From Rugalucina vietnamica (lineage: Eukaryota; Mollusca; Bivalvia; Lucinida; Lucinidae), in the NCBI GenBank assembly GCA_964017185.1, contig OZ024884.1:13369548-13433547 (forward strand): a stretch of DNA of 64,000 nt, given 5' to 3'. The translations under genes were made by a program, and so were the position numbers. The notes beneath the pieces were generated by a model, which saw only the letters and a program-made list of their open reading frames with translations, ran no database searches and was not told the DNA's origin. Below are positions 39,655 through 63,342 of this stretch, piece after piece (position 1 is the stretch's first letter; every line of letters starts with the position of its first letter).

Positions 39655-40368
39655 TAAGGATGGGAACGAATGGCAAATACATGTATGCTATTCGAATATT
39701 CGTATACATTATTCGAATGTATTCGAATATTCGGATAGAGAAATTGAGATTTCAACTCGGAGAGACGTACCCAAGGTGTGTGTGAGCGCTGTGAAGAACT
39801 TCCAAGCACGTGACGGCGTTGATGGCGGCATTTCAGAACTATGAAATGAATAATTTGGTTGTGAAAATTGGAAGAAACGCTAGAACCAAAATGATGCCAC
39901 GCTTCGTGATTGGCTGTATTTCAATTTATAATAATGTTTGCTTGGTTTGCTGTTTTACTGTAACACTGTCGCAATTCGTTCTGGGTAGCATCTTCTACTA
40001 ATCGCTTGTTTAAGGTGTCAATTACATGCACAATAAATCAAACGCAGACCGTTCACACCTTTCAAAAAACAAACTCGTCTGAGACAGGTAATGATCGACT
40101 TTCGACTAATTAAAGTAATTGTTAAAACAACAAAGTGTCAAACTGGCAAGGCAATTTGCAAGAATGATACATACCGACTTTCACGGAAAATTGCGTTAAG
40201 AGAGAAAGGCGCCGCGAGAATGAATGCGAATTTTAGGCAAAAACTCGAGAGAAAGAAGAATGAAAAATATGAACATGAAAAAATACGAATATTCGAATTC
40301 GGAAACGCATTCGAATATTCGTTAGAAATACGAATATTCGAATGTTCGAATATTCGTTCCCATCCTTA
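39655..40368. mobile_element. hAT-like MITE rich in CGAATATTCG, copy 1
   Basis: Ends are TAAGGATGGGAACGAAT at the left and ATTCGTTCCCATCCTTA at the right. Several copies of the palindrome CGAATATTCG lie next to both ends. It is about 714 bp and has no transposase. The TIR resembles those of known hAT families, but I do not see an 8-bp target duplication. Confidence 0.7.
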
Positions 40369-40875
40369 GGGATGTCAACGAATGCCGAAATTGGTGTTCG
40401 AATATTCGCATAGGATATTCGAATATATTCGAATATTCGAATGATATACACATCTATGCCCAATAGACCCATTACGATGACTTACTTGGTGGTACATGTA
40501 TTGAAAATATGAGGTACATGTGTATGCATGGTATCGTATTTGGGCTATACCAATGGTGCCATGTAAGAAAATCATCAAATTTTGCACAGAAAACTAGACA
40601 ATCTGGAGGTGTTTAATAATGACAAATCTCTGGGGTTCTGTCTGAGAAAGCAACGACACACCATTATTGTCAAGCCAAGATTAAGTTCTGCATGCATGTC
40701 GTTGATATCCGCCACCAAGAATGCTTAGGGTCTATTGTAGTCGTGTGGCCTACATGTACTTTGTGACCTTAAGGTTTGAGTTCTCAATCTATTCAGCCAT
40801 CTTAACATGACACAGCTCAAATTGTAGGACTTTCACACCTTAAAAACATTTATTGAAAGCACGCAATGCTTTCTT

Positions 40876-40942
40876 CTCAACTTGAATCAACAAAGTGTCA
40901 CTTGAATCAACAAAGTGTCACCTGAATCAACAAAGTGTCAAA
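40876..40942. repeat. Three tandem copies of a 21-bp unit
   Basis: (CTTGAATCAACAAAGTGTCA) and variants, three copies, within the left half of the split hAT-like MITE. Confidence 0.85.
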
Positions 40943-41042
40943 CTGTTAATTGAGCAATCTCAATTTGCAAGTGTGTCAAAATGATGACCATCTTGAATTA
41001 CACAACACTACATAGGGGGCACTTTGGACCCAAAACAGGAAA

Positions 41043-41308
41043 TGACTCAAGTGTTTTTCAAGTAGTTTTTCAAGTGGCGTATGACGTCATCGACGTCACG
41101 CGACGATGAGTCACGCGGTGAGTCATAAAGAGGTCAAGTACCGACGCCACGTCGGAGCCAATCAACGTCGGGCGTCGTATGAGTCATCGACATCACGCGA
41201 CCGTGAGTCATACCCTACCCACGCCACTTCAGAATAACGGTTATTTTGAAAACGTCCAATGAAAACTGACGCTAGTGGTAGCCGTTCGCGCTAGATTAAT
41301 ATGACTCA
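41043..41308. promoter_or_regulatory. Cluster of AP-1 and CRE-type sites, left end
   Basis: TGA(G/C)TCA occurs at 41043, 41107, 41119, 41180, 41204 and 41302, and TGACGTCA at 41082. That is seven bZIP-type sites in 266 bp. Part of the cluster (GAGTCATCGACATCACGCGA and following) is repeated inside the arm at about 43669. Function inferred. Confidence 0.55.
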
Positions 41309-41559
41309 CCAACGTTAAGTAACTGAGCCACTTGAAAGGATACAACCCAGGATTACAAAGTTGAAGTTTTCAAATCGGAGCATAGAAGGTAAGTTGTAGT
41401 GATTTCGTTACTACCAGTCAAACTCTTTGATCAGTATTCTTAGCTGTTGATATACATCGTATTCTTTTCTGTCCAAATTCTATTATCCTTTTCATTTCAA
41501 GTACTCATAAGTACCGTCCACTTGACTATTCTTCAAACGGGAATTAAAGCAATTTGAGT

Positions 41560-41780
41560 ATGGGCCACATCCTGAGAAAACAAAGCAGGAGTTTTGTACA
41601 TACACAAACAAAGAAGCAGATCATCTCTGCATGATCTGCGCAACTGATGAGCAGTTTTGATTTTGATCGCTACACGGATAATAAAAAGTTCCTCTGATAG
41701 CTAAATCAAGCTTCTAGCTATCTTCTGTGACTATATAGGCATTGAACCCTGTCAGAATATCCTGACACAGCCTGAGATAT
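41560..41780. mobile_element. Divergent MITE family B copy in the left arm
   Basis: 'CATCCTGAGAAAACAAAGCA', 'GCAGATCATCTCTGCATGAT' (palindromic core) and 'GCTACACGGATAATAAAAAG'. It is mirrored at about 56967-57187 in the right arm, so it was inside the element before the arms were duplicated. Confidence 0.55.
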
Positions 41781-43403
41781 TCAGTTTAAAGAAAAACGGT
41801 AATTTGAGTCCAACATTCTCATCAAGTCTACACAGCCGAATATGGTACCAAAGCATAGCAAGAGAGTGTCATTTGATTAAACGGTGACTGTGAGAACTTG
41901 TTTTGTCGAGCCCGGCCAAAATTTTCGATCGACACCAAGACAAACATACGGGAAGAAGAAGGAGTGGGGACCGAGCTCAGCCATTTGATTTGTCTTCGTT
42001 TACTGTCCATACCTACGACACTCAGTAGTCGACACCACAACGTATAGTATGGATACGGGACCATCCTTTGCGGTTACGGACCCGCTTGGTTATCAACGTC
42101 GACTAGAAACTTTTAGTGACTGGCAAGTGACAAAGTAGAATGTTTCGCCGGTCATGTCAGGCTTGCGGGTTGAAAAAAAAACACGTAGAACAAAAGATGG
42201 TCTGAACGAGGTTGGTATCTCAAATTAACCGGATGCGCATCAGCCAACACCATTTGTATGACTTGAATTTTTTCAAAGATGTTTACTTCGAGAGCTTGAC
42301 TGCAATTATTTCCTCTTTGCTATGAAATAGCGTTCCTGTCAACATTTTTTCAGTCATGTCTGGACGGAGGTATCGCCTGATATGTATTAACCAATATTCA
42401 GGGGAGCTTAACACATATTGTTCAAGGGTACTTACATGTACTTGTATTTCACACTAGACCACCGTTCTCCCAAACGCGATCATTTTTGCGTATTGAATAG
42501 GCAATCATCTTTGTAGTTTATATGCATCCGAAGTTTACGTTACACACTCACATTGACCTTGCCAGTTGAGCTCACACGTTTTGCAAGATGTCTACTTGCT
42601 CTAGACTCTTAAAGAACGCAATGTGAAAAGCGTGCTCATGTCTTATTTGACATGTTATAATCTCATTTAATATTGAAAACATACACATTTGCGGCAACGC
42701 CGTCGACAATTTTAGGCTCACCAATCCTTTTCCCTATGCTGCGCGCTCGTGATTTGCTCTGCTTTACAACTGACCTCCAAACAGTGATATATTACTCAAC
42801 AATTCACTACTAGAGCTGATCTATTTCTTAAATGTTTCCTCTGGACGAAAACGCTTATGCATAGGTGAGCACAAATGCTCATCTATAAAAAAATATATAA
42901 AAGTTGTTAGAAAAAAAAGAAACGTTTTTAAATTTTGCTCAGAACTGTAGTATGCCTTGGGCTTACGAGACAATATGCAGAGGAGAGAAAAAAACTCCAG
43001 CCGTAACATGTTTCAGAAGTTTCTATCTGGTCACGGAGAAATTCTTACTTACTTGAAATATTTTCTAGAGGAAACAGACTCACACGCAGAGTACCCATGG
43101 TTGTGTTGCTATTGAGGGGACTCAATTTGGGAAAGACGCCGATTGTGATCAATACGAATTTAGAAAACAAACAATAGCAAGTGACTTATTGCTAATCGAA
43201 CCAATGTGATGTCAAAGCAATGGACAATGGTTAGTCCCTTCTTCGTTTCACACGTCGGTTAAAAATGTTACTATCACGAGTACGTCGCTAAAAATGTTAT
43301 TCCTTACTACAAGACGATTTTCGAAGCCAGAGAAGCAGCGAATCGCTTATAACCAACCCGAAGTATTTTACAAACTCTCTTAGCCGCATTCGCTGTCACT
43401 GTG

Positions 43404-43407
<4 letters not shown>

Positions 43408-43454
<47 letters not shown>

Positions 43455-43455
43455 A
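43408..43455. repeat. (AAC)n microsatellite, left arm
   Basis: About 16 AAC units. The mirror (GTT)n in the right arm has the same length, 52176-52223, although such tracts normally change quickly. Confidence 0.95.
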
Positions 43456-44033
43456 TCCATTCATTTAAGACGCGTTTTTCATGGATATCATACCAGATCC
43501 TCATTTATACGGAATGAACTTGTTCAGAGACAGACTGTTGACTTTCCATAATTGGTTTAGACAGACGATTCCCGGCAAACAATCTCTGGCTCAAGCAAGA
43601 TTCTAGTAACTAGAAGAATGTGTTATTCTTGTCAGGAAGGCCAATTGTCAAACACATGACATAGCTTATGAGTCATCGACATCACGCGACCGTGAGTCAT
43701 ACCCTACCTACGCTACTTCAACGAATCGATCAGCGACTGCTTTTAGGACCTATTCCTAATAACGTCATGTTTGTTATATATATTGAACGCGACGGCGTAC
43801 GGTTGATTATTATTACTATCGATTCTGAACTGAAAACATTATGGAGAACGAGCAAGTGTTTTTCGAACTCGGAAATAACAGATACGTTAAAGTATGCGAA
43901 TAAATCTCGAACCAGTTCAGTTGTCTAGATCTTATAGACAGTGCCGTGGAGGAATACAAGAACTCAAAACCGGTGGGCTGCATGGTACACTTATACGGAA
44001 ACTATCATGTGTCTGTAAAAAAGTGGTTACCCT

Positions 44034-44273
44034 CTGGTAAACATACGACGCTGGTTTGTCCCCGACGGCTACGAGGAACTCATTCCGACGAAAACGGGCA
44101 TAGCGCTTACGTTTCTTCAATGGGAGAAACTGAAATCAGCCATGCTTCTCGTTGAGGAACTTCTCGACGGAAAATTGGACAAAGTCACACTGTGCGGAGA
44201 TTCTCATCAAAACCAGGAGGGGTCTATGGTGTGTTCTAAATGCAACCCGAACGGGTACATGAACTATTTTTGA
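44034..44273 (+). pseudogene. PC4-like (transcriptional coactivator p15) segment, left arm
   Basis: This frame contains 'LVNIRRWFVPDGYEELIPTK' and 'TGIALTFLQWEKLKSAMLLV', followed by a tail with 'LCGDSHQ' and 'CSKCNP'. It resembles the C-terminal half of the PC4 ssDNA-binding domain (xIRx(Y/W)....GE..P.K.GI.L...QW..L). PC4-family proteins bind single-stranded or melted DNA and affect transcription. Only this half is described. The unit is treated as a fossil inside the inverted-repeat element. Confidence 0.55.
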
Positions 44274-44280
44274 AACTTCA

Positions 44281-44826
44281 GTGACTGGTAACTGTGTTTT
44301 CTTAAATACGCCCATAGTTTTAAATGTTTCATGGACTCTTATTTATGTACTTTTTGTTGTATTTTGTGTGTTCAAGCGAGTTGTAAGATACTTTTACGCG
44401 GCTATTTGGTTTGGTGAGCTTAATTGCCATAGTAAAAAAATGGACCACATGTGTGAATATCGCCTTGGCCACCGGAAAGTGGCTACGAAGTACAACAGTG
44501 CAAAGACGCATGTTATACAGACTACTTACGTTTCGGTTCGAGAATGTTACCTCTGTGGGAAAATAAAACCAGAAACACCCGCCGATGAATTCGTTTCAAT
44601 CAGGACTAATGAGTGTTTTGACTTGATAATAAAATTCAGAATCATGGAAGAGGATGAAGTATTTAATGAACGACCACTTACTTGTAACTGGATGGACTTT
44701 ATTCCAATGTCTAAAAAAGAAGATCCGCTGTTTATACGGACAAGTAAAATTAAAGAGACAAACTGCCAATGTAAATCTTGTAGTTTCTTGAAGCTTTACG
44801 TTGACTTTGTAGAAATACAACGATAG
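44281..44826 (+). CDS. Open frame conserved in both arms, left copy (unknown function)
   Basis: A 181-codon open frame whose first ATG is at 44440, giving 128 residues (MDHMCEYRLGHRKVATKYNS onward). Upstream codons would encode a hydrophobic stretch but begin with GTG. The 128-residue part has a 'CYLCGKIKP' knuckle and a 'NCQCKSC' cluster near the C-terminus, possibly zinc-binding. The predicted protein is identical to the right-arm copy, and the base difference I noticed is synonymous. No family recognised. Confidence 0.45.
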   Translation: MTGNCVFLNTPIVLNVSWTLIYVLFVVFCVFKRVVRYFYAAIWFGELNCHSKKMDHMCEYRLGHRKVATKYNSAKTHVIQTTYVSVRECYLCGKIKPETPADEFVSIRTNECFDLIIKFRIMEEDEVFNERPLTCNWMDFIPMSKKEDPLFIRTSKIKETNCQCKSCSFLKLYVDFVEIQR

Positions 44827-45058
44827 AACAAATTTAATTGATACTTCATGTACATGTAAGCCTTGTATTTTGTTTGTCGTATATTTTAAGCGTGTATCGT
44901 GTATGTATAAATATATATCGTATGAATGAAGGTATTTCTAGTCTTGCTTACTGTTTACCCAATGCGCAAACAAGAAAATGACATGTCGAAAATACATTGT
45001 CTTTTTTTAGACAAGTCATATTTTTTGTCGCATGATCATCAACATATACATTAACCAT

Positions 45059-45277
45059 TCATTTTTTTTTCTCACAAACTCTCCGGACACCCAAGCCCGC
45101 TTCGTTTCCGTCTCGTTTTCTTCTCCTCACACAAATGCCCATCACGAGCTTATATAAACCCTTTTTTATAAACCTTAAAATACAGTTGCACTGTCTCACA
45201 TTATTTCTTGTTACTTTTGCGAAAGATGGATATTCTTCGACCATTCTTTCCTGAAAGTCCAGAGCTGAATTGCACAT
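45059..45277 (-). CDS. Small basic open frame, left arm
   Basis: 72 residues, ATG start, strongly basic C-terminal half (VMGICVRRRKRDGNEAG, ending CEKKK). The right-arm counterpart at 50350-50568 differs at one residue (Gln versus Lys). No known domain. It could be chance coding sequence. Confidence 0.25.
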   Translation of the reverse strand: MCNSALDFQERMVEEYPSFAKVTRNNVRQCNCILRFIKKGLYKLVMGICVRRRKRDGNEAGLGVRRVCEKKK

Positions 45278-45760
45278 CTAAGCGTACGCTGCCTCCTTCA
45301 CCAAAGTCAGGAACTCGCCATGGTGTGAGAGGACATGTTCCAACTAGAAGGCGAAGCTAGTGCTGCCGCTTATAAAGTGTTTCAAGTCCAGCTTATTGCC
45401 TTCGTCCTGACCCTATTTCTCATCAGAACTCATTAGTAAATTAAAATAGGCTTTGATTCATAATCGCAATACCACCAGCATGCGTTACTTATTGAATATA
45501 GTGTTAGAATCAGCACCAGGAAATGTCTGCTCGATTAGTCCACCCCTCTTTTTTGGACGTAGGAGAGATGATGATACCAATACGAAATATGTAGCCATAC
45601 AGGCATGGACCCCACCCCCTAAAAAAACAGGAGGTGTGATCAGGTGATCGCGAAAATGTGAACATCACCTGCCCATTATAATGCACCAGCCATGTCCATA
45701 TGACTGATTACAAAGCCGAGAAAATGGTAAGTAACGAATGTCCGGTAATTGAAAGCCTTA

Positions 45761-45924
45761 TTAATTATTGGCAATTGGCATAAGGTCAGTCACAAGTTTA
45801 GACGCGGCCACGCTGTAGGGATCATCAAGATCATGTTGTCTCCCATAGAACTTTTTAAGAGTTGACACAAGCTTTGTCCTGCGATATCCCTTTGACAACA
45901 ATTTGCTAGTGAGTAACTTTGATA
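45761..45924 (-). pseudogene. Retroelement C-terminal remnant at inner end of the left arm
   Basis: Encodes 'KLLTSKLLSKGYRRTKLVST' and 'LKKFYGRQHDLDDPY', the same sequence as in the right arm (49783-49946). The arm similarity stops inside this phrase, so the inverted repeat begins within a retroelement fragment. Confidence 0.65.
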
Positions 45925-46784
45925 TTAAACATGAATTACTTGTCTTTTGGGAAGTGTCGTTATCCCGCTGCGGCGTTATGCCCCTATCCCGCGGCGATTG
46001 CGGCGTTTTAACATCGTACCGCGTCGACGGGGATTGTTCAGTCGCGGTGACGATTGAAGCCATACCCGTGGCGTAAATAAACAATAGAGAAACTCGTGTT
46101 AAGAAATATAAAACATAGGTTACAATCTATAACATAAATAACAGAAAGCATGGTTGGCAAATATAAGTGAGGTGATTACAGTGCTAGATTTGACAGAACA
46201 AATAAAATGCTCAAGGCAAAGTTAACAGCCAAATAATATTCGGTTGGTCACAAATTCATAAACATAATCATTGTAAAACACTTGGTTAAATGAAAACCAA
46301 AACAGTGATTCAGCCTCGTACATTTTATCAATTAAGTTTTTTTTCTCGCCTGTTTTTTTTTTCTTTTTTTTTTTTTTAGTGGAATCTTTTTTTTTGATTA
46401 CGCTGCTTCCTGATCCTAGGACGTAGATCTTTAAAATCATTAAAATGTAACAGATTATCTTTCTGGAGTAAGCCAGTAGAAGAAAAAAAAACATACTTCA
46501 CATTGACCTGACTGCTTAGCAATGCAGTCAAGACGAGTCGTCATGTTGAGACACAGATATCATAAGCACTCTTACAGCGACAGAGTCAGTCAAAAATTAC
46601 CACAGAATTATGCAACTTATTCGCCACCGCGGGACGCCGCAATCGCCGCGGGATAGGGGCATAACGCCGCGGCGGGATAACGACACGCCGCCGCCTGCGG
46701 CGGCGGGAATACAACATACTGATGCCGCCTTCGGCGGCGTTGAATACGCCGCCGCCGCCGCCGCCGTCGCCGCCGCCGCCGCCT

Positions 46785-46818
<34 letters not shown>

Positions 46819-48250
46819 AGCGTAGAGTGTCCACCAGTTGGAAAATGGCTATTCACTCGATATGTTTTCCTTGTATCTAGTACAAGCTGTACGTGATTGT
46901 CAAATTAGTTTTGAGTGAGAATTTCTTTCGGATTGCGCCATTTACTGATTAGTGCTTACTTTTACCTTTTTAAAGTGACTTTATCGACGTGTGATGACCA
47001 TACTGTATTTATTTTCTTCGGTAAAATCTCTTGGTTGTACAGAACTGACCATACTGTATACAGAACTGACCATACTGTATTTATTTTCTTTGTTGTTGTT
47101 TGTTTGTTTGTTTGTTTCTTTTTTCTCGTAGAGTAGGATCCTACTGGAACTGCCAAAACACATAGGATGTGTTCGCCTTCTTTAGGCAAAATTTATCACT
47201 AGTTGACGTCTGATTACTGATCAACTACTTAGACCTGAGCCTGGCTAAGAAAAGTGACTTTAGTCCACTCATCCGCTCTAAAAAGACATAGTTATTATCC
47301 AAGAATCATTTGATGCACTTTTAGGGTGCTATGACATCCTCATGTAGACTAGAAGTCTCACGAAATTGAGGCAACGTCCATACATAATCTTGTTTGTCGA
47401 ATTTGTCGTAAAACAACAAATCAATCAAATAAGGCTTAGGACAGAAAAACGAAGCAGAAAATTGTTTAAAAGTTTTAATGAATACATAATAATGACGATA
47501 TGTATATAAAATAAAATGCATTCCGTTCATGTAAAAGCTGTTGGTGAAACACTGATTTGAGAATGGAAACATGAAGTGCCTTTGACACAATGAGTCAAAG
47601 AACATGTGGCATTGATGATGTGAAACACGTCAGGAAAGTGTTGCCATACTTCTAAATTATCATATCATCTAACGAACATTTCAATGAGCTAATATTTCAG
47701 GGGTCAGAAGGGATGATACTGATCTATCTTTACTATCAATATCAACATGATGATCTAATATCTAAGATCACGTGATTTCTAGACAGTCTTGTTTACAATG
47801 CAAGAAAGGCTAAAATAAAAAGGATAAACATAGCATTGACAATGGATGTCATATTTGTAGTATATACACAATGAAATGAGGGAAAATTGGATGCATAATA
47901 TACGATGAAACTGTAATTTTATCAGTCAGACTTGTTATGATCTTCATTTGAACCAAGCATTAGCAGGTAACTCGACTTGCAAGGCATATTATAGATGTCG
48001 AGAATGTAATCCGTAGATAGATAAAGCAAAACAAAAGGGCAGATTATTTACATGCGAAGAACAGTACTACAAATTTGTAAGGGTTACTTCAAAGAAAACC
48101 ACCTCTGTGTCATGGTCAGAGTAGAGGAAACGAGCAAGCCTGATTCAATGAATAAACGAAATGGGCTCAATTAAGTATATATTTTCGATTTTGAGTGCAG
48201 ACAAGATGACCAAATAGCCCAGGTAAGACGTTCCAACTGAGGAAAATCTA
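45925..48250. other. Centre of the inverted repeat: non-coding and repeat debris
   Basis: No gene seen. It includes inverted copies of a GC-rich block ('GCGGGATAGGGGCATAACGC' at about 46645 and its complement at about 45980). A degraded family C copy lies at 46826-46975 on the minus strand. Short tandem copies of 'CAGAACTGACCATACTGTAT' lie at 47036-47085. Confidence 0.5.
46741..46819. repeat. (CCG)n trinucleotide repeat
   Basis: About 26 CCG/GCC units with a few interruptions, preceded by more GC-rich palindromic sequence from 46623. It creates poly-Gly, poly-Arg and poly-Ala frames, which are artefacts. Confidence 0.95.
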
Positions 48251-48253
48251 CAT

Positions 48254-48457
48254 GTGGAACATTTGCACACGTGCCATATATCTGCCTCGTACCTAGATTG
48301 TTATCTTAATATTGACAATGGAAAGCTTATTACTAGGCTTGTTGTCAAGAGGGATGACTTCAATTTCCCAATAGTTAACTTTCCATTTATGAGTAGCAAT
48401 ATGCCATCAGCACCTGCTTACGGAGTATATGTCTCTCAGCTAGTTCGCTATGCTAAA
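48254..48457 (+). pseudogene. Retroelement ('KRDDFNFPIVNFPF' type) RT C-terminal fragment, first part
   Basis: 'ASYLDCYLNIDNGKLITRL', 'KRDDFNFPIVNFPFMSSN' and 'APAYGVYVSQLVRYAKK'. I recognise this as the segment after the RT core of a retroelement family widespread in invertebrates, perhaps a Naiad-type Penelope relative, but that label is unverified. It is interrupted by a family C insertion. It is a fossil fragment. Confidence 0.6.
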
Positions 48458-48874
48458 AAGGTACAAGTAGGCAAAGATCAGGAAAAGGCGCAATCAGAAA
48501 AAGATTCCCACTCCAAAAACCGAGGTTGGAAAAAACCAAACTAACAATCAGGTACTTATACCATGAAACATATCGTAAGCCGAATGAGCAGCTATTTTCC
48601 CAATAGGTGGCCACCCAGTTACCTTAACTTAACTAAAAATATGAAAACATACATAAGGCGCCAACAGCACAAAAAATTTTAAATACTAAGACATAAAACA
48701 AAAAGAACCACTACAGAAGTATCGACTTGGAACGATCAGTAACACAAAGTTACTGGCGGGCTTAAACCGGTTTTACTGGTACCTAACCTCACCCTCATCT
48801 TCTGCAGTGGTTCACAACATTTAGTTAGTTCTTCGGTCCTCGTCGTGAATCTCTAACTAGTCAATGAATCATTA
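48458..48874 (+). repeat. Interspersed family C, copy 5 (full length)
   Basis: Begins 'AAAGGTACAAGTAGGCAAAG' and ends 'GAATCTCTAACTAGTCAATG'. It is inserted in the retroelement fragment and therefore younger than it. Confidence 0.75.
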
Positions 48875-48889
48875 AGAACAAACAAATAA

Positions 48890-49640
48890 ATCATGATAAA
48901 CATCCTGATGAATCAAAAACCAGGACTCACAGATTCAGTAAGCTGCCCGACGATGGAGATCCCTGGGCGCCGAATAACCTACTAACTCCGGAGCAAAAGA
49001 AAAACACCAGTTGGACCCCGGTGGGCCAAGCAACAGACAAGAAGCTCCGGCCCCAACCAACTAAAATGAATAGCTTTAAGTCGGGGCCATCATAGAGTCT
49101 GACGCCCGACCCACCGGCGTGCAATTAAAGAAGGCAGCATAGTTATCAACCATGATTGGGTTAAAAACTAAGCATGCAGACTGTCGCATAACATTCAAGT
49201 TATAACCTATACGTCTGTAACGTGATATGATTTTTCCGAACTGAAGAGAAAAATCATTTATTCCTTTAAGTTTCTTTAATTTGTAAACCAAGTCACCATA
49301 AAATTCAGGTTCCGAAAGGCCCTCACTTAAAAGTGTCTTTAACCCAACATTATATTTGGAAATCAATTCATAGTGTCTACGATAAAATTTAGAAAAGGTT
49401 TTTCGAAGTTTATGATACCGATAGCCCTGTTGGAGAAGTTTTGCCGTTAAACATTTATTTCGAGCGTTGAAGTCTGTAACATGATTGCAGACTCTAGCAA
49501 ACCTAATAAGTTGCGAAATGTATACACCATAAGAAGCACGACGAGGAACGTCACCATCCAAAAAAGGAAAATTTACTATATCAAAATCAAAGTCATCGCG
49601 CTTATCATAAATTTTAGAAGAAACAAATCCATTTGCAAGA
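48890..49640 (-). pseudogene. Second retroelement C-terminal fragment, opposite orientation
   Basis: On the minus strand: 'KIYDKRDDFDFDIVNFPFLD', 'ASYGVYISQLIRFARVCNHV', 'AKLLQQGYRYHKLRKTFSKF', 'SACLVFNPIMVDNYAAFF' and 'CTPVGRASDSMMAPT'. It is the same family as the plus-strand fragment but a different copy, and extends further downstream. Fossil fragment. Confidence 0.65.
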
Positions 49641-49731
49641 AACAAATCCATTTGCAACCATCCATTAGAAGAAACAAATCCATTTGCAACAGAAAGCCGC
49701 AAATTTTAGAAGAAACAAATCCATTTACATC
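49612..49731. repeat. Short tandem array of GAAACAAATCCATTTGCA units
   Basis: The unit AGAAACAAATCCATTTGCA recurs four to five times with spacers, forming the junction between the minus-strand fragment and the resumed plus-strand fragment. Confidence 0.75.
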
Positions 49732-49745
49732 GTAGGAAGTTTGTC

Positions 49746-49946
49746 TTGGAAGCCTGCTGTAACTACGAAGACTTTGTTGATAGGGGGAAGTTACTCACCA
49801 GCAAATTGTTGTCAAAGGGATATCGCAGGACGAAGCTTGTGTCAACTCTTAAAAAGTTCTATGGGAGACAACATGATCTTGATGATCCCTACAGCGTGGC
49901 CGCGTCTAAACTTGTGACTGACCTTATGCCAATTGCCAATAATTAA
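49746..49946 (+). pseudogene. Retroelement C-terminal fragment, second part
   Basis: 'EACCNYEDFVDRGKLLTSK', 'LLSKGYRRTKLVSTLKKFYG' and 'KLVTDLMPIANN'. From 49783 onward it is part of the right arm of the giant inverted repeat. Confidence 0.6.
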
Positions 49947-50349
49947 TAAGGCTTTCAATTACCGGACATTCGTTACTTACCATTTTCTCGGCTTTGTAAT
50001 CAGTCATATGGACATGGCTGGTGCATTATAATGGGCAGGTGATGTTCACATTTTCGCGATCACCTGATCACACCTCCTGTTTTTTTAGGGGGTGGGGTCC
50101 ATGCCTGTATGGCTACATATTTCGTATTGGTATCATCATCTCTCCTACGTCCAAAAAAGAGGGGTGGACTAATCGAGCTATTTTAATTTACTAATGAGTT
50201 CTGATGAGAAATAGGGTCAGGACGAAGGCAATAAGCTGGACTTGAAACACTTTATAAGCGGCAGCACTAGCTTCGCCTTCTAGTTGGAACATGTCCTCTC
50301 ACACCATGGCGAGTTCCTGACTTTGGTGAAGGAGGCAGCGTACGCTTAG

Positions 50350-50568
50350 ATGTGCAATTCAGCTCTGGACTTTCAGGAAAGAATGGTCGAAGAATATCCA
50401 TCTTTCGCAAAAGTAACAAGAAATAATGTGAGAAAATGCAACTGTATTTTAAGGTTTATAAAAAAGGGTTTATATAAGCTCGTGATGGGCATTTGTGTGA
50501 GGAGAAGAAAACGAGACGGAAACGAAGCGGGCTTGGGTGTCCGGAGAGTTTGTGAGAAAAAAAAATGA
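50350..50568 (+). CDS. Small basic open frame, right arm
   Basis: Mirror of 45059-45277, one residue different. See that entry. Function unknown. Confidence 0.25.
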   Translation: MCNSALDFQERMVEEYPSFAKVTRNNVRKCNCILRFIKKGLYKLVMGICVRRRKRDGNEAGLGVRRVCEKKK

Positions 50569-50804
50569 ATGGTTAATGTATATGTTGATGATCATGCGAC
50601 AAAAAATATGACTTGTCTAAAAAAAGACAATGTATTTTCGACATGTCATTTTCTTGTTTGCGCATTGGGTAAACAGTAAGCAAGACTAGAAATACCTTCA
50701 TTCATTCATACGATATATATTTATACATACACGATACACGCTTAAAATATACGACAAACAAAATACAAGGCTTACATGTACATGAAGTATCAATTAAATT
50801 TGTT

Positions 50805-51350
50805 CTATCGTTGTATTTCTACAAAGTCAACGTAAAGCTTCAAGAAACTACAAGATTTACATTGGCAGTTTGTCTCTTTAATTTTACTTGTCCGTATAAA
50901 CAGCGGATCTTCTTTTTTAGACATTGGAATAAAGTCCATCCAGTTACAAGTAAGTGGTCGTTCATTAAATACTTCATCCTCTTCCATGATTCTGAATTTT
51001 ATTATCAAGTCAAAACACTCATTAGTCCTGATTGAAACGAATTCATCGGCGGGTGTTTCTGGTTTTATTTTCCCACAGAGGTAACATTCTCGAACCGAAA
51101 CGTAAGTAGTCTGTATAACATGCGTCTTTGCGCTGTTGTACTTCGTAGCCACTTTCCGGTGGCCAAGGCGATATTCACACATGTGGTCCATTTTTTTACT
51201 ATGGCAATTAAGCTCACCAAACCAAATAGCCGCGTAAAAGTATCTTACAACTCGCTTGAACACACAAAATACAACAAAAAGTACATAAATAAGAGTCCAT
51301 GAAACATTTAAAACTATGGGCGTATTTAAGAAAACACAGTTACCAGTCAC
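50805..51350 (-). CDS. Open frame conserved in both arms, right copy (unknown function)
   Basis: Mirror of 44281-44826 with an identical 181-codon translation. The first ATG gives the same 128-residue protein with the CYLC and NCQCKSC clusters. Having two open copies fits either recent duplication or constraint. Confidence 0.45.
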   Translation of the reverse strand: MTGNCVFLNTPIVLNVSWTLIYVLFVVFCVFKRVVRYFYAAIWFGELNCHSKKMDHMCEYRLGHRKVATKYNSAKTHVIQTTYVSVRECYLCGKIKPETPADEFVSIRTNECFDLIIKFRIMEEDEVFNERPLTCNWMDFIPMSKKEDPLFIRTSKIKETNCQCKSCSFLKLYVDFVEIQR

Positions 51351-51357
51351 TGAAGTT

Positions 51358-51597
51358 TCAAAAATAGTTCATGTACCCGTTCGGGTTGCATTCAGAACAC
51401 ACCATAGACCCCTCCTGGTTTTGATGAGAATCTCCGCACAGTGTGACTTTGTCCAATTTTCCGTCGAGAAGTTCCTCAACGAGAAGCATGGCTGATTTCA
51501 GTTTCTCCCATTGAAGAAACGTAAGCGCTATGCCCGTTTTCGTCGGAATGAGTTCCTCGTAGCCGTCGGGGACAAACCAGCGTCGTATGTTTACCAG
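51358..51597 (-). pseudogene. PC4-like segment, right arm
   Basis: Mirror of 44034-44273. The same 'IRRWFVPDGYEELIPTK' and 'GIALTFLQWEKLK' phrases are seen. It lies just downstream of the same conserved neighbour frame, in the same relative order as in the left arm. Confidence 0.55.
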
Positions 51598-52175
51598 AGG
51601 GTAACCACTTTTTTACAGACACGTGATAGTTTCCGTATAAGTGTACCATGCAGCCCACCGGTTTTGAGTTCTTGTATTCCTCCACGGCACTGTCTATAAG
51701 ATCTAGACAACTGAACTGGTTCGAGATTTATTCGCATACTTTAACGTATCTGTTATTTCCGAGTTCGAAAAACACTTGCTCGTTCTCCATAATGTTTTCA
51801 GTTCAGAATCGATAGTAATAATAATCAACCGTACGCCGTCGCGTTCAATATATATAACAAACATGACGTCATTATGAATAGGTCCTAAAAGCAGTCGCTG
51901 ATCGATTCGTTGAAGTAGCGTAGGTAGGGTATGGCTCACGGTCGCGTGATGTCGATGACTCATAAGCTATGTCATGTGTTTGACAATTGGCCTTCCTGAC
52001 AAGAATAACACATTCTTCTAGTTACTAGAATCTTGCTTGAGCCAGAGATTGTTTGCCGGGAATCGTCTGTCTAAACCAATTATGGAAAGTCAACAGTCTG
52101 TCTCTGAACAAGTTCATTCCGTATAAATGAGGATCTGGTATGATATCCATGAAAAACGCGTATTAAATGAATGGA

Positions 52176-52176
52176 T

Positions 52177-52223
<47 letters not shown>
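52176..52223. repeat. (GTT)n microsatellite, right arm
   Basis: Mirror of the (AAC)n tract at 43408-43455, with the same number of units as far as I can count. Confidence 0.95.
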
Positions 52224-52227
<4 letters not shown>

Positions 52228-54585
52228 CACAGTGACAGCGAATGCGGCTAAGAGAGTTTGTAAAATACTTCGGGTTGGTTATAAGCGATTCGCTGCTTCT
52301 CTGGCTTCGAAAATCGTCTTGTAGTAAGGAATAACATTTTTAGCGACGTACTCGTGATAGTAACATTTTTAACCGACGTGTGAAACGAAGAAGGGACTAA
52401 CCATTGTCCATTGCTTTGACATCACATTGGTTCGATTAGCAATAAGTCACTTGCTATTGTGTGTTTTCTGACTTCGTATTGATCACAATCGGCGTCTTTC
52501 CCAAATTGAGTCCCCTCAATAGCAACACAACCATGGGTACTCTGCGTGTGAGTCTGTTTCCTCTAGAAAATATTTCAAGTAAGTAAGAATTTCTCCGTGA
52601 CCAGATAGAAACTTCTGAAACATGTTACGGCTGGAGTTTTTTTCTCTCCTCTGCATATTGTCTCGTAAGCCCAAGGCATACTACAGTTCTGAGCAAAATT
52701 TAAAAACGTTTCTTTTTTTCTAACAACTTTTATATATTTTTTTTATAGATGAGCATTTGTGCTCACCTATGCATAAGCGTTTTCGTCCAGAGGAAACATT
52801 TAAGAAATAGATCAGCTCTAGTAGTGAATTGTTGAGTAATATATCACTGTTTGGAGGTCAGTTGTAAAGCAGAGCAAATCACGAGCGCGCAGCATAGGGA
52901 AAAGGATTGGTGAGCCTAAAATTGTCGACGGCGTTGCCGCAAATGTGTATGTTTTCAATATTAAATGAGATTATAACATGTCAAATAAGACATGAGCACG
53001 CTTTTCACATTGCGTTCTTTAAGAGTCTAGAGCAAGTAGACATCTTGCAAAACGTGTGAGCTCCACTGGCAAGGTCAATGTGAGTGTGTAACGTAAACTT
53101 CGGATGCATATAAACTACAAAGATGATTGCCTATTCAATACGCAAAAATGATCGCGTTTGGGAGAACGGTGGTCTAGTGTGAAATACAAGTACATGTAAG
53201 TACCCTTGAACAATATGTGTTAAGCTCCCCTGAATATTGGTTAACACATATCAGGCGATACCCATGGGGTACTTTAGTCGTACTAGCACTTCTACAGGTA
53301 TTGGCCAATAAATTGTATAAAACATATAGGGAAAAAATATTTAACACTTCATAACTTTCTTATTTCTTATGATATTTTTATATCACGAACGGCGTTAGAA
53401 AGTATAATTCTTTATCTTTACCATAGGTTTTAAATTTTTGACGTAGCACTATTATAAAATGGTCTGTTTGAGGACGGCCGTCTTGTTGTACGCAATTTAA
53501 TTAAATATATAGCAAAATTTCCGTAAAACGCGGTTAATTACGCCTAGGTACATTACTTCAGCAACAATTTTAAGCTATAATTTTACATAAATGTTAGGCG
53601 TCACAAACGGTCCAATTTAGTACAAATATTATATTTTAATCTGGTGTATTTTTTATTTTTGTAGCTCAACGATAAATTGGTCTGTTTGAGCAAGGACCAA
53701 AAAAATAATAAATATTATTTTCTATCTGGAATTTCCGTGGGTATCCGTAAAATGCACCGATAAGACCCGACTTAATTTCCAGGTATTAATGCCGTGGGCG
53801 AAGATTATCGCTCTAATATGAAAATGAAATGTATTTGATGACTGAGGGTGTAATAAAGAATTTTATATGAATAAATTAATAGGCTTAAGTTTAGAGAGTG
53901 ATATTTTGCGGAAATAAAACATTAAACTTTACCATATTTTGTTCTCCTTTTTCGGCAGTAGATGCTGAATTGAAAACACAGATGTCAATTCGCTCATGAT
54001 TGCATAATGTCAATTAGTAATGACGCTGTGTTAAATTCGCAATCAAGTTCTACTCATTTTATTTATCATTTTATTTTTATGAGAATCTTTTTTATAATTA
54101 TTTCGTGAGGTATTTGTATTTTTCTTTTGATGCTGTAATCCGCAACAGGACGAGTGCTCGATATCTGCCATTCAAAGTCAATCCAAACAAAATAACAGCT
54201 TTTATTAGCTTTAATTAAAGAACAAAAACATCAAACATAAACGTTTAAAGCGATCATCGCCTGAACAACTGAATCCCGACAACAATTAAAGAAATGTACA
54301 TGTAATCCATTTAACTTAAGTATTTCACACATACTAGAGAATTGTAATTGAGCAAACCGAACGAGTTTAATTACTCATTTACCGAAAGCGGTGCATGGTG
54401 ATGACACTGTGCCATAACACATTATGCATGCCTTATTTAACCAAGGTGAAGAATTCAAAGATATTTAAAATCTATTTTTTAATATCTTTCTCAAAGCATT
54501 TTGACACGAAACAAAAACATTTAATCATTATACATCTATAGTAGTAGAGAAGACTCCTACATTTATCAACCTAAATATGTGTAAA

Positions 54586-54617
54586 TACGCATTCATTCAT
54601 TCATTCATTCATTCATT

Positions 54618-54669
<52 letters not shown>

Positions 54670-54690
54670 TTTTTCTTTCATTTCTTTCTA
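54586..54690. repeat. (CATT)n and (CTTT)n compound microsatellite
   Basis: About seven CATT units followed by about twenty CTTT units. Confidence 0.95.
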
Positions 54691-54769
54691 TCTGTCTTTC
54701 TTCTTATATGCGATATATGAAATTCTTGACGACAAAGAAATAATTTGAGATAATTCTCAATGAAAATGG

Positions 54770-54966
54770 CAAGTTCCTGCGTCTTTGTTTTCGCTTCATA
54801 GACAGAAAATTCCTCTTTTTCTTAAATACGAAGCTTCATAGATAGCAAATTCCTCTTCTTCTTAAATACGAAATTTCAAACTTCTAGCCTGCTTCTGTGA
54901 CTGTACAGGCTGGCTTGTGCCTGACCTGGTCTGAAACCAAACTTGTTTTCTCATGCGAAGGCTCAT
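54770..54966. mobile_element. MITE family B, copy 8 (one end lost)
   Basis: 'CCTGCGTCTTTGTTTTCGCT' through 'TTGTTTTCTCATGCGAAGGC'. A 30-40-bp internal piece ('AAATTCCTCTT..CTTAAATACGAA') is duplicated. Confidence 0.65.
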
Positions 54967-55131
54967 TTGGTATTTTATTCTTGTACATGAGATTGTTTCT
55001 TGGCCTACCTTAGAAAATAAACCGTTTGCATTATTGAGGCGTGTCAGGTTTACACCGCATGGTGCTTTAACAAAAAATGTAGTTTAATTAAACATGGAAT
55101 TTCGTTTTAAGAATCTAGATCTCTATATGCA

Positions 55132-55326
55132 GACTTGGCTAAGAGTAGCCTGCCTGATATGCAGAATCAGTTTTGTCTGTCAAAACAGCTTTCCTATGAC
55201 GCTGCCAAATTATCATGTGAGAATGTTTTTATAAGAAGCGTGACTTTAATACCTTGCGGCGACAGCCTAAATACGCTGGATGTCAGGTGTAATCCTTTTA
55301 ACTACCTTATAATCACCAAAGCGTGA
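55132..55326 (+). other. Possible terminal exon with four cysteines (weak)
   Basis: After an acceptor-like 'CTCTATATGCAG', an open frame encodes LAKSSLPDMQNQFCLSKQL to 'CNPFNYLIITKA' and a stop. There is no ATG. The cysteine spacing looks extracellular, but no partner exon or family is recognised. Confidence 0.2.
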
Positions 55327-55932
55327 AAACCTACTTTCTGGTCGGCATTTCTGACCATGTCAGACAAAGACCGGATTGGTTATCATTAAAACTGTATCAA
55401 GGTTGAACTGCATACTTGGGTCTTATGGAAAATGGTGTTTCAGGGCTGTGCAGGTCATCACCGCCCTTACACCGCCCTTACACCACCCGTTTGAGTATAG
55501 AAGTGAAGAATTTAATTCGATATATATAGACTGTGAATATCTAAGTTTTTTTTACCCAGCGAAAATGTATAAATATTCTAAATTCATTTATTTGGCACGA
55601 ATTACATTTAATTTCTATATAAAGAAAAACGAATTTATTTAATATTTTATGTGTGTCTTTCACATTCGGATCCTGATAGCCTTCTAAATTTATTTTTAAC
55701 AATATGATTACTACTGCGCAAATATTTTCAAAAGGGGAACAACACGTTTATTCTCCATATAAGGTTACAAACAACTTATGAAGTCTATTAAAATAATAAA
55801 TGCAGGTTCTTAAATCATCTTGAAAATGCATCTGCAAGACGAATGATTTGTTTACGTTGGTTCTCTGTTATATCCTGTATAAAATCATCCGAAGTGACAT
55901 GGGGGTAGCAGATGAATACCCCCGGTCCCTGC

Positions 55933-56128
55933 ATTACGAAAACTTGCCCATGCAATATACAGAGATTTATTTTAGCTATAAAAATTGAAAATTTTCATCT
56001 GAAAAAAATTGAATTTTTTCTTATTTTTGCTCAAAACATAGATTGTGGGTGCACGTTAGAACCGCCTCACCGAGGCCCACAATCTATACCCATGCATACC
56101 CCAGTTTTGCTATATAAAAGTGGGGTTC
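55933..56128. mobile_element. MITE family A, copy 8 (truncated)
   Basis: 'ATTACGAAAACTTGCCCATG' to 'TTTTGCTATATAAAAGTGGG'. The last 40 bp of the family are missing. Confidence 0.75.
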
Positions 56129-57438
56129 AACTGCGCTTAATTAAAATCAAGTTTTCACGCAGAGAAAGCTGCAGAGAAAGCTTTTAAAATAAAGCGATGA
56201 AATCTCAACTGTCCCCAGGCAACACTGACATTACCTGGACAGATTAGCCGAATGATAATCGAATATCGCCGGCCAATATCGGATATTATCGGAAAGACTC
56301 CGTAAATTTACCTGAGCGCTAGTAAAATCGATTGCTTGCTTATGTGCCTATATTGAAATACGACTATTGTCCCGGTTGTCCGTCCAGACATGACTGAAAA
56401 AATGTTGACAGGAACGCTATTTCATAGCAAAGAGGAAATAATTGCAGTCAAGCTCTCGAAGTAAACATCTTTGAAAAAATTCAAGTCATACAAATGGTGT
56501 TGGCTGATGCGCATCCGGTTAATTTGAGATACCAACCTCGTTCAGACCATCTTTTGTTCTACGTGTTTTTTTTTCAACCCGCAAGCCTGACATGACCGGC
56601 GAAACATTCTACTTTGTCACTTGCCAGTCACTAAAAGTTTCTAGTCGACGTTGATAACCAAGCGGGTCCGTAACCGCAAAGGATGGTCCCGTATCCATAC
56701 TATACGCTGTGGTGTCGACTACTGAGTGTCGTAGGTATGGACAGTAAACGAAGACCAATCAAATGGCTGAGCTCGGTCCCCACTCCTTCTTCTTCCCGTA
56801 TGTTTGTCTTGGTGTCGATCGAAAATTTTGGCCGGGCTCGACAAAACAAGTTCTCACAGTCACCGTTTAATCAAATGACACTCTCTTGCTATGCTTTGGT
56901 ACCATATTCGGCTGTGTAGACTTGATGAGAATGTTGGACTCAAATTACCGTTTTTCTTTAAACTGAATATCTCAGGCTGTGTCAGGATATTCTGACAGGG
57001 TTCAATGCCTATATAGTCACAGAAGATAGCTAGAAGCTTGATTTAGCTATCAGAGGAACTTTTTATTATCCGTGTAGCGATCAAAATCAAAACTGCTCAT
57101 CAGTTGCGCAGATCATGCAGAGATGATCTGCTTCTTTGTTTGTGTATGTACAAAACTCCTGCTTTGTTTTCTCAGGATGTGGCCCATACTCAAATTGCTT
57201 TAATTCCCGTTTGAAGAATAGTCAAGTGGACGGTACTTATGAGTACTTGAAATGAAAAGGATAATAGAATTTGGACAGAAAAGAATACGATGTATATCAA
57301 CAGCTAAGAATACTGATCAAAGAGTTTGACTGGTAGTAAAGAAATCACTACAACTTACCTTCTATGCTCCGATTTGAAAACTTCAACTTTGTAATCCTGG
57401 GTTGTATCCTTTCAAGTGGCTCAGTTACTTAACGTTGG

Positions 57439-57704
57439 TGAGTCATATTAATCCAGCGCGAACGGCTACCACTAGCGTCAGTTTTCATTGGACGTTTTCA
57501 AAATAACCGTTATTCTGAAGTGGCGTGGGTAGGGTATGACTCACGGTCGCGTGATGTCGATGACTCATACGACGCCCGACGTTGATTGGCTCCGACGTGG
57601 CGTCGGTACTTGACCTCTTTATGACTCACCGCGTGACTCATCGTCGCGTGACGTCGATGACGTCATACGCCACTTGAAAAACCACTTGAAAACCACTTGA
57701 GTCA
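57439..57704. promoter_or_regulatory. Cluster of AP-1 and CRE-type sites, right end
   Basis: Mirror of 41043-41308. The TGAGTCA at 57439 is the mirror of the 41302 site. Having the cluster at both ends means any transcription it drives would point in opposite directions. Confidence 0.55.
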
Positions 57705-58487
57705 TTTCCTGTTTTGGGTCCAAAGTGCCCCCTATGTAGTCTCAACAGACAAGCAGGATTACTGGTCATATTATTTCTCGACTTTAGGCCTTAAATTTGA
57801 GTCCTCCTTTGAACTGATATATGACAATTATTGCAGGTTAGAAAATTATGCGAATATTCGAATCCAGAAATCGCATTCGAATATTCGTATGAAATGCGAA
57901 TATTCGAACATTCGAATATTCGTTGACATCCCTACTCTAAACCCAAACCGCGTTTCCTGTCATTGTACTGCAAATGTATTTAATATTGTAGTATGACTTT
58001 CGTTTTTTTTCCTTTGAAGTTTTTGTAATATTAAGTCCAATACAAGTGAATATCAAAGGAGGCTTGTCTACATATTAATACTTTGCGGAAGGAGACGGAA
58101 TGAAAACTCTTAACTTCCTGATATTGGAAGTTACAGTACGGATCTGTCAACTGGTATGTTGTCATACTACAAGTTAGTTAAAGACCTCACCGCTCAGAAA
58201 AATAAGTAAAAAACAGCTTGTCTTCGACTCGCTTAATTTTACTTATTTTTTTCTACTCGGTAGCTTTCACAAAATCCCTTTGTTGTAGTCACAGTTAGGT
58301 TTTATTCTCGATGACGTTGAAGAAAACAGCTTTAGAGAAGAATTCAGCGAACAAATTTCTATGGACAAAAATTGTGAATGGTCTTAAGACTCACGATACT
58401 ATGTTTAATTTTATGCGCCAGTTTACCTATAAATCAGTTTTAATAAATGATGATCGATATAAAGTGTTGCGTTATTAAAGTCCGCCA

Positions 58488-61479: not shown

Positions 61480-62985
61480 ATATTAATAAAATACTTGGCA
61501 AATGTTGAGTCGAAATTTGCTGGGAATTTACATGACAGGTAAATGTTGCGATGAATTTGACTTTTATTTTCTTGCGTTGTTTTGCATGTGTAAATATTGA
61601 CATTTGCAATTAGTTTACATATCCTATGTGTGCCTTTAGCTTGCCGCATTTACCAAGGCATGCATATCATTGAAATGTCAATATTTGATACCTGATTTAC
61701 GTATCTTCCGTAAATGCGAATGTTTGTCTCTTTTGCTAACGTTGTTTACATGTCCAAAGACTGGCATTAGCAATCATTTTGCATACCCTATGTGTGCCTT
61801 TAGCTTGCCGCATTTACAATGGTATGTATACTATTGGCTATGCCTAAGTTTGATAGCTGATTTACGTATCTTCTGTAAACGTAAATATTTGTTTCGTTTG
61901 GTTGCGTTTTTGTGCATGTTCAAAGACTGGCATTTGCAATCATTTTGCATACCTTATGTGTGCCTTTGGCTTGCCGCATTTACAATGATATGTATAATAT
62001 TGGCTATGCCAATATTTGATTACTTATTTACGTATCTTCCGTAAACGTTAATCTTTGTTGCTTTTGATTGCGTTGTTGTATTGTTCAAAGACTGGCATAA
62101 GCAATCATTTTGCACACCCTATGTATGCCTTTAGCTTGCCGCATTTACAGTGGTATGTATACTATTGGCTATGCCTAAATGATAGCTGATTTACGTATCT
62201 TCTGTAAACGTAAATATTTGTTTCGTTTGGTTGCGTTTTTGTACAGTTTCAAAGACTGGCATTTGCAATCATTTTGCATACCCTATGTATGCCTTTAGCT
62301 TGCCGCATTTACAATGGTATGTATAATATTGGCTATGCCAATATTTGATTACTTATTTACGTATCTTCCGTAAACGTTAATCTTTGTTTCTTTTGATTGC
62401 GTTGTTGTACATGTTAAAAGACTGGCATTTCCAATCATTTTGCAGACCTTATGCATGCCTTTAGCTTGCCGCATTTAAAATTGTATGTATACATCTAGCT
62501 ATGTCAATATTTGATGGCTGATTTACGTATCTTCCGCAAACATTAATGTGTGTTTCGTTTGGTTGCGCTGTTGTACATGTTCAAAAACTGACATTAGCAA
62601 TCTTTTGCATACCTTATGTATGCCTTTAGTTTGCATCATTGACAATGGTATGTATAATACTGGCTATGGCAATATTTGATAGCTGATTTACGAATCTTCC
62701 GTAAACGTTAATGTTTGTTTTGTTGGTTGTTTTGCTGTGCATGTTCAAAGTCTGGCATTAGCATTCGTTTTGCATACTTTGTGTATGCCTTTAGCTTACC
62801 GCATTTACAATGATATGTGTATTACTGAGTAAGCCAATATTTACTGATTCACGTATCTTCTGTAAACGTGAATGTTTATTTCGTTTGGTTGCGTTGTTGT
62901 ACATGTTCAAAGACTGGCATTTGCACTCTTTTTGCACCCCTTACGTATACATATATACTGCTGCATTTACAATGGTACATGTATA
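61480..62985. repeat. Tandem array of about 165-bp units (about nine copies) with dimeric higher-order pattern
   Basis: 'GCTTGCCGCATTTAC' or a variant recurs at about 61642, 61808, 61972, 62139, 62302, 62467, 62631, 62799 and 62952. Other shared words are 'TTTACGTATCTTC', 'GTAAACGT', 'TGGTTGCGTT', 'CAAAGACTGGCAT' and 'CCTATGTGTGCCTTTAG'. Units starting at 61808 and 62139 are nearly identical to each other, as are those at 61972 and 62302, so part of the array evolved as 330-bp dimers. The outer units are the most diverged. Confidence 0.9.
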
Positions 62986-63342
62986 ATTTTTGGTAACTAG
63001 TAATCGCACTATACCACAGATTGATTTAAAACAGAAATTGTATTTTGAAATAACAATACACCGGTTACGCCTTGATCACATTGTAAAGATACATCTTCAA
63101 CATACAGCGTTTTACAGAATCAAATTTATGCCACTGACTGTTAAATTTGCAATATCGCTCGAGAATCAGGGTGTGTTTTCAGCATGTGAAAGAACGTGTA
63201 ATCCATAAATTACATAAGCGTAGTACGAGGGGTATGCGGGGAATATACAAAAATAATACTCATGCTAGGCCAGATGACACACCGACATCAGATTGCATGC
63301 CTGTTACTGAATATTCTTAAACCACCCTAAAGAAAGGCCGGT

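Follow-up and report, generated by a model that had tools for sequence, protein, structure and literature searches.

What kind of element is the 16.7-kb inverted repeat at positions 41007-57740 of a 64,000-nucleotide stretch of the genome of the bivalve Rugalucina vietnamica? The stretch, hereafter the window, is positions 13,369,548 to 13,433,547 of contig OZ024884.1 (C16:13369548-13433547); C1, C2, C7, C17 and similar names denote other sequences of the same genome (~1.09 Gb). A sequence-only reading had assigned the repeat to no recognised family and had suggested a new type of large palindromic mobile element. Our analysis instead ties it to the Polinton/Maverick family by its ends, 6-bp target-site duplications and gene remnants, and it is probably a Polinton-derived, non-autonomous, mobile inverted dimer. 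The mobile and palindromic character proposed earlier held up, with shared ends and further copies; the palindromic build is unusual, but the family is not.

Structure, insertion and further copies

The inverted repeat had sharp outer ends on both sides, in agreement with the earlier description. Paired blocks were found at 41007-42368/56379-57740, 42369-42893/52738-53262, 42912-44930/50701-52719, 44900-45449/50178-50727 and 45529-45919/49788-50178. The left arm (41007-45919, + strand, 4,913 bp) runs inwards from a Polinton-type terminus, and the right arm (49788-57740, − strand, spanning 7,953 bp) is its reverse complement plus an insert. With the insert excluded, 22 substitutions were found among 4,832 aligned bases of the two arms, along with 86 gap columns; 8,376 reverse-complement 30-mers were counted in the element, compared with 0 in each of five base shuffles. 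The earlier claim of near-identical arms of about 4.9 kb was accurate in this respect, but the arms are not uniform: the right arm alone carries a 3,116-bp insert (53263-56378), and ~2 kb of the inner left arm is missing relative to a copy on C7. The insert was not found at that place in a C17 relative, and no target duplication was evident around it.

The element is flanked by CACAAC on the left (41001-41006) and CTCAAC on the right (57741-57746), with five of the six bases in agreement. Comparison with an uninterrupted paralogous copy on C17 showed that it sits in a host repeat (40367-57934) with inverted ends TAGGGATGTCAACGAA, which we take to be hAT-like. The C17 copy reads GAATTA-CTCAAC-AGACAAG, with a single CTCAAC. 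The 6-bp target duplication, previously regarded as possible, is thus supported by an empty site of the kind that the sequence-only reading had proposed to look for, although a paralogous one, and by perfect duplications at two other elements. The mismatch between CACAAC and CTCAAC may mean that the left copy changed once after the insertion, or that the host repeats differ from one another.

Genome searches scored the best candidates only, which makes all copy numbers minimum values. When as many as two mismatches were tolerated, the 20-base terminus ACTACATAGGGGGCACTTTG was found at at least 11 places, including the two window ends, compared with 2 for the reversed control; some of the two-mismatch matches may therefore be due to chance. 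Three elements were complete in that they have an inverted pair of ends and a 6-bp duplication: the window element, the C7 copy (C7:24734091-24784041; TATTTT, 6/6) and a copy termed C2b (C2:63444686-63451528; TGCAGC, 6/6). The C7 copy is ~50 kb long owing to inserts of 31.8 kb and 3.2 kb in its arms, while C2b is 6.8 kb long, with arms of ~1.75 kb that are ~96% identical and one terminus mismatch. Single ends were found on C11 (two), at C2:4107015, at C7:54751498 and, in a more diverged form, on C17; a match on C5 is doubtful. The element is therefore not the lone locus with variable ends that would have spoken for a one-off event, as the complete copies outside the window have the same ends with 0-1 mismatch in 20.

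Evidence for a Polinton origin

A full Polinton of 20,392 bp was identified at C1:53564310-53584701, with ends ACTACTAAGGGGGG, terminal inverted repeats (TIRs) of ~0.25 kb and a perfect CATCAG duplication. An integrase and frames of capsid and protease type could be read in it, its polB frame is 1,339 amino acids (aa) long, and genes for PC4 and a TATA-binding protein (TBP) lie at its capsid-side end. No PC4 match was found in the right-end stretch examined (which does not include 53573001-53579999), and the TBP search listed no second place within this Polinton. The window-type ends ACTACATAGGGG resemble the C1 Polinton ends ACTACTAAGGGG, the common part being ACTAC(A/T)(A/T)AGGGG, and differ from the (AGT)2 and (AG)3 motifs given for vertebrate Mavericks (PMC8097293). 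The 6-bp duplication expected of Polintons was 5/6 in the window and 6/6 in C7, C2b and the C1 Polinton.

The arms contain a broken PC4-type gene (43841-44270, + strand) with its pieces in different frames. The piece at 44019-44270 matched Pfam PC4 (PF02229, E 5.8e-9). It also matched the PC4 gene carried by the C1 Polinton, which has no introns, at 33% over 83 aa (E 6e-14), as well as two C11 Polinton pieces (E 2e-9 and 1.6e-7). The C1 and C11 Polintons with these matches both carry rve+chromo integrases. In the window and C7 copies, PC4 is broken into the same two frames; the gene was therefore already disrupted in their common ancestor, which is consistent with help in trans.

An antisense stretch at 45158-45485 (− strand) presumably corresponds to a capsid-type Polinton gene at its 3' end, a label that we base on gene order. 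DNA matching the stretch from 45158 at 81-87% was found at 13 further loci, 11 of which had an integrase match 2.9-3.8 kb away; at the C3 locus the distance was 8.3 kb, and at the C6 locus none was listed. In an example on C4 (L023), the matching DNA forms the end of a capsid-type frame, which lies between an rve+chromo integrase and a cysteine-protease-type frame, the latter matching the S273R cysteine protease of African swine fever virus (8.2e-6). Another L023 frame, taken for a packaging ATPase, gave no match in Pfam or in one further search. Among the capsid, protease and ATPase genes, the window shows the capsid-type 3' end only, the protease and ATPase not having been searched for by profile.

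A polB remnant with broken frames lies in the centre (47602-48300, + strand) and shows 74-75% identity to polB-region DNA of C9 and C11 Polintons; in the C7 copy, each arm contains most of it. C2b contains one polB piece just under the Pfam cut-off (PF03175, E 2.2e-5) and a second, of 370 aa, that is 46-49% identical to long polB frames such as that of C1. In a sister copy, C2a, a broken homologue of ORF2 adjoins an integrase piece 41% identical to the C1 integrase. ORF2 itself (P0001, 128 aa) is intact at 44440-44826 (+ strand), and a second copy lies in the right arm at 50808-51191 (− strand). ORF2 had no match in Pfam or PHROGs and no relative in viral_contigs, and its single-sequence fold prediction was unusable (mean predicted local distance difference test score 29.4). 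The protein-coding cargo reported earlier thus comes down to this one small open reading frame (ORF), the rest being broken Polinton genes.

Because of the ends, the 6-bp duplications and the gene remnants (PC4, capsid-type 3' end, polB and the integrase piece of the sister copy), we regard the window element as derived from a Polinton/Maverick. The integrase search and two polB searches gave no window match, the broken remnant being the only polB sequence identified there, and the TIR length is outside the range given for intact vertebrate Mavericks. It is therefore classified as a Polinton-derived non-autonomous element and not as a Polinton. The idea that the arms carry unknown cargo was ruled out by PC4, the capsid-type end and the polB remnant. 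An intermediate reading, in which the arm represented the left end of a Polinton only, was widened once the polB remnant had been found in the centre.

Arm comparison and proposed origin of the palindrome

The window and C7 copies share the same central segment and, once C7 is flipped, the same inner order. The four arms of these copies were aligned as two blocks, corresponding to 41007-43306 and 43524-45449 of the window left arm, which yielded 4,011 ungapped columns; the stretch between the blocks, with its low-complexity run, and the innermost 470 bases were left out, and 281 and 458 gapped columns were dropped. Among the 4,011 columns, 82 separated the copies with both arms in agreement, none paired arms across copies, and 31 were singletons. 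The arms differed at 18 columns within the window copy and at 13 within C7, compared with 63-68 plus 29-35 columns between copies. Arm divergence was 0.35-0.48% within a copy and 1.7-3.8% between copies. If the arms of one inherited palindrome had diverged freely, the difference within a copy should be at least as large as that between copies, and the opposite was observed. This pattern implies that the arms were equalised, or the palindrome remade, before or at each insertion, or that they were converted afterwards.

We propose that an internally deleted Polinton, with the order terminus, PC4, ORF2, capsid-type 3' end and polB remnant, was doubled into an inverted dimer that has the same terminus facing outward on both sides and moves as a unit. 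Polintons carry a protein-primed polymerase (PMC6431247). The palindrome may well have arisen by fold-back (snap-back or panhandle) copying during such replication, an origin that we favour with some reserve: a displaced strand would fold back near its far end and be copied, giving the dimer. The dimer ends would still be recognisable to the integrase, allowing insertion with a 6-bp duplication. For replication and insertion, the dimer most likely depends on polB and integrase that fuller Polintons of the genome provide in trans. More tentatively, hairpin repair or recopying could have equalised the arms at the time of each insertion or just before it, much as long terminal repeats (LTRs) are born equal. 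A bolder and more speculative possibility is that a Polinton lineage became a self-propagating palindromic replicon that exploits intact Polintons in the manner of a defective interfering genome; at each replication its arms would be equalised, and their divergence would date insertions as that of LTRs does.

Alternative explanations

Two alternatives concern only how the arms came to agree. Each copy might have arisen by a separate doubling, a linear progenitor having folded back each time at one and the same short, GC-rich inverted repeat; the youth of each palindrome would then explain why its arms agree. This would leave the Polinton descent untouched. Arms alike within and different between copies, together with the lack of cross-pattern columns, are what such independent doubling predicts, and a 53-bp inverted repeat in the centre could direct the fold-back. 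We nevertheless consider it unlikely, since the central segment and inner order common to both copies favour one palindromic ancestor, the window copy resembles the C7 layout with ~2 kb deleted on one side, and the linear progenitor was not found in the genome. Ordinary gene conversion between the arms after insertion, as in the palindromes of sex chromosomes, likewise bears on a single step and would require nothing special of replication. Long near-identical inverted repeats are known substrates for conversion, and the window arms are 0.46% apart. This explanation seems rather doubtful to us: arm divergence is similar in both copies, and inserts present in one arm only have been kept (3.1 kb in the window, 31.8 and 3.2 kb in C7), although both points are only suggestive.

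The other alternatives would place the element outside the Polintons. A long-TIR, foldback-like DNA transposon of another superfamily could have captured Polinton fragments; other superfamilies can have long TIRs, and an intact integrase was not found in the element. This is improbable, however, because the ends resemble those of the full Polinton, the duplication length is equal, and C2b, which has these ends, holds polB pieces. In addition, no other transposase was recognised by eye among frames of at least 45 aa in the left arm and centre, seven of which were scanned against Pfam. Near-identical arms are also a classical risk for misassembly, and the assembly sequence alone was examined. 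That the repeat is an assembly artefact or a single inverted duplication of host DNA can nonetheless be practically dismissed in view of the 22 arm substitutions and the one-arm insert, the second palindromic copy, the 6-bp duplications and the paralogous empty site; the further copies, duplications and empty site also led us to reject in-place duplication.

Several observations weigh against a Polinton-derived dimer made by fold-back. The reference Polinton on C1 is distant (33% for the PC4 piece), and the polB remnant is closest to Polintons with polB and integrase on opposite strands, unlike C1, which detracts from the case for colinearity of the whole arm with C1. Genome searches for polB and integrase found no intact copy of either in the window element. 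Some gene names are indirect: the C2a integrase piece has no Pfam rve match of its own and the 370-aa piece of C2b no Pfam match of its own, both being named from long Polinton frames, and searches of Pfam and PDB with the capsid-type frame gave nothing meaningful, which leaves the capsid label without database support. The fold-back origin is inferred, not observed, homogenisation on the chromosome after insertion would give the same arm pattern, and no single-arm, non-palindromic linear progenitor of the subfamily turned up in the genome. Finally, in the region C17:27909000-27914000 only ~0.75 kb separates the empty site from a diverged fragment of an arm belonging to this Polinton family; whether coincidence or shared history, we have no explanation for it.

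Comparison with known systems

Laboratory stocks of protein-primed viruses are known to contain defective palindromic genomes. In SYREC-type symmetric defective adenovirus genomes, which arise by fold-back copying, one end of this protein-primed linear replicon is said to be duplicated and inverted around a non-repeated centre; our literature search for them found no paper. The window element has the same layout, and its origin is inferred; unlike those genomes, it is integrated with target duplications and has moved as a unit. Foldback elements and Teratorn (the latter in PMC6431247) resemble the window element in being mobile with long inverted repeats, and have other transposases, ends and target duplications. 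Foldback-type TIRs are long and internally repetitive, with ends of their own; the TIRs of the window element are long too, but mostly made up of gene-bearing DNA, with Polinton-like ends.

The element shares with Polintons/Mavericks its 6-bp duplication, inverted ends, remnants (polB, capsid-type end and PC4) and fuller relatives in the same genome. It departs from them in its palindromic layout and in the lack of a detected intact polB or integrase. Its TIRs of 4.9 kb (longer in C7) are more than three times the longest of intact vertebrate Mavericks, for which PMC8097293 gives 46-1,447 bp. The fungal invertron plasmids pAL2-1 and kalilo are comparable as terminal-protein-primed linear elements with long inverted repeats, which at integration sites are described as possible racquet/panhandle products (PMC1864894). 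Their repeats are of flanking mitochondrial DNA, whereas those of the window are of the element itself. No description of palindromic Polintons was found in the open-access literature, which is weak evidence of absence.

Transposable palindromic genomes residing in a host genome would allow formation, spread in trans and arm homogenisation to be studied from sequence. A snap-back palindrome, if that is what this element is, would be a footprint of Polinton replication as free linear genomes.

Transcription factor genes in fuller Polintons

At least 11 loci of the genome, including L025:745-1266, L024:3783-4316, C2:16254449 and C16:34722678, hold Polintons with intronless TBP genes. The search gave 24 matches at these 11 loci, with five matches on C4 and C5 excluded as presumed exons of host genes, and every locus has a match to integrase or polB no more than 12 kb away. 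The two genes that were read matched Pfam TBP with E values of 1.3e-26 and 2e-27. A TBP search of viral_contigs gave no confirmed relative. In one published paper, the TBP genes belong to mirusvirus-like elements. We found no description of Polinton-borne PC4 or TBP in the open-access literature, again weak evidence of absence. The presence of PC4 and TBP genes in the fuller relatives hints that these Polintons may bring their own general transcription factors.

Other features of the element and its relatives

The outermost part of the left arm is a terminal module (ACTACATAGGGGGCACTTTGG...; 41007-41347, + strand) that recurs, whole or in part, elsewhere in the family. Upstream of the PC4 gene, at 43667-43720, lies a ~54-bp cassette that contains TGAGTCA-type motifs and is promoter-like by eye; it matches the terminal module of other copies and, also by eye, recurs at ~41183-41233 in the window terminus. 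At its inner end, the left arm contains a fragment of a high-copy retroelement-like repeat (45529-45919, − strand). We assume it to be reverse-transcriptase-like; its relatives gave no Pfam match.

The centre, unpaired in the window copy, extends over 45920-49787. It includes the GC-rich segment (45954-46686) flanked by the 53-bp inverted repeat (98%), which is also found at the centre of the C7 copy, and a 1.3-kb high-copy repeat inserted at 48458-49749 that is not in the C7 copy. Within this central insertion, at the 3' end of a retroelement-like frame, positions 49034-49101 (− strand) matched Rfam SECIS_1 at 39 bits (gathering threshold 35).

The 31.8-kb sequence inserted into the C7 copy, in its right arm (C7:24749918-24781742), is another giant element, with 490-bp inverted ends (CACGGGGACCCAACTG...), a 5-bp duplication AATAA and inverted repeat arrays near both ends. 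In the slices examined, its sole frame of at least 130 aa was 136 aa long. Inside the end of another copy, at C7:54749199-54749579, a frame resembling GNAT acetyltransferases was found (PF00583, E 0.0027, below the cut-off), possibly variable cargo near Polinton ends. Elsewhere in the window, long tandem arrays occupy 12698-14689 and 61572-62987, with periods of 188/376 and 166/495 bases, respectively.

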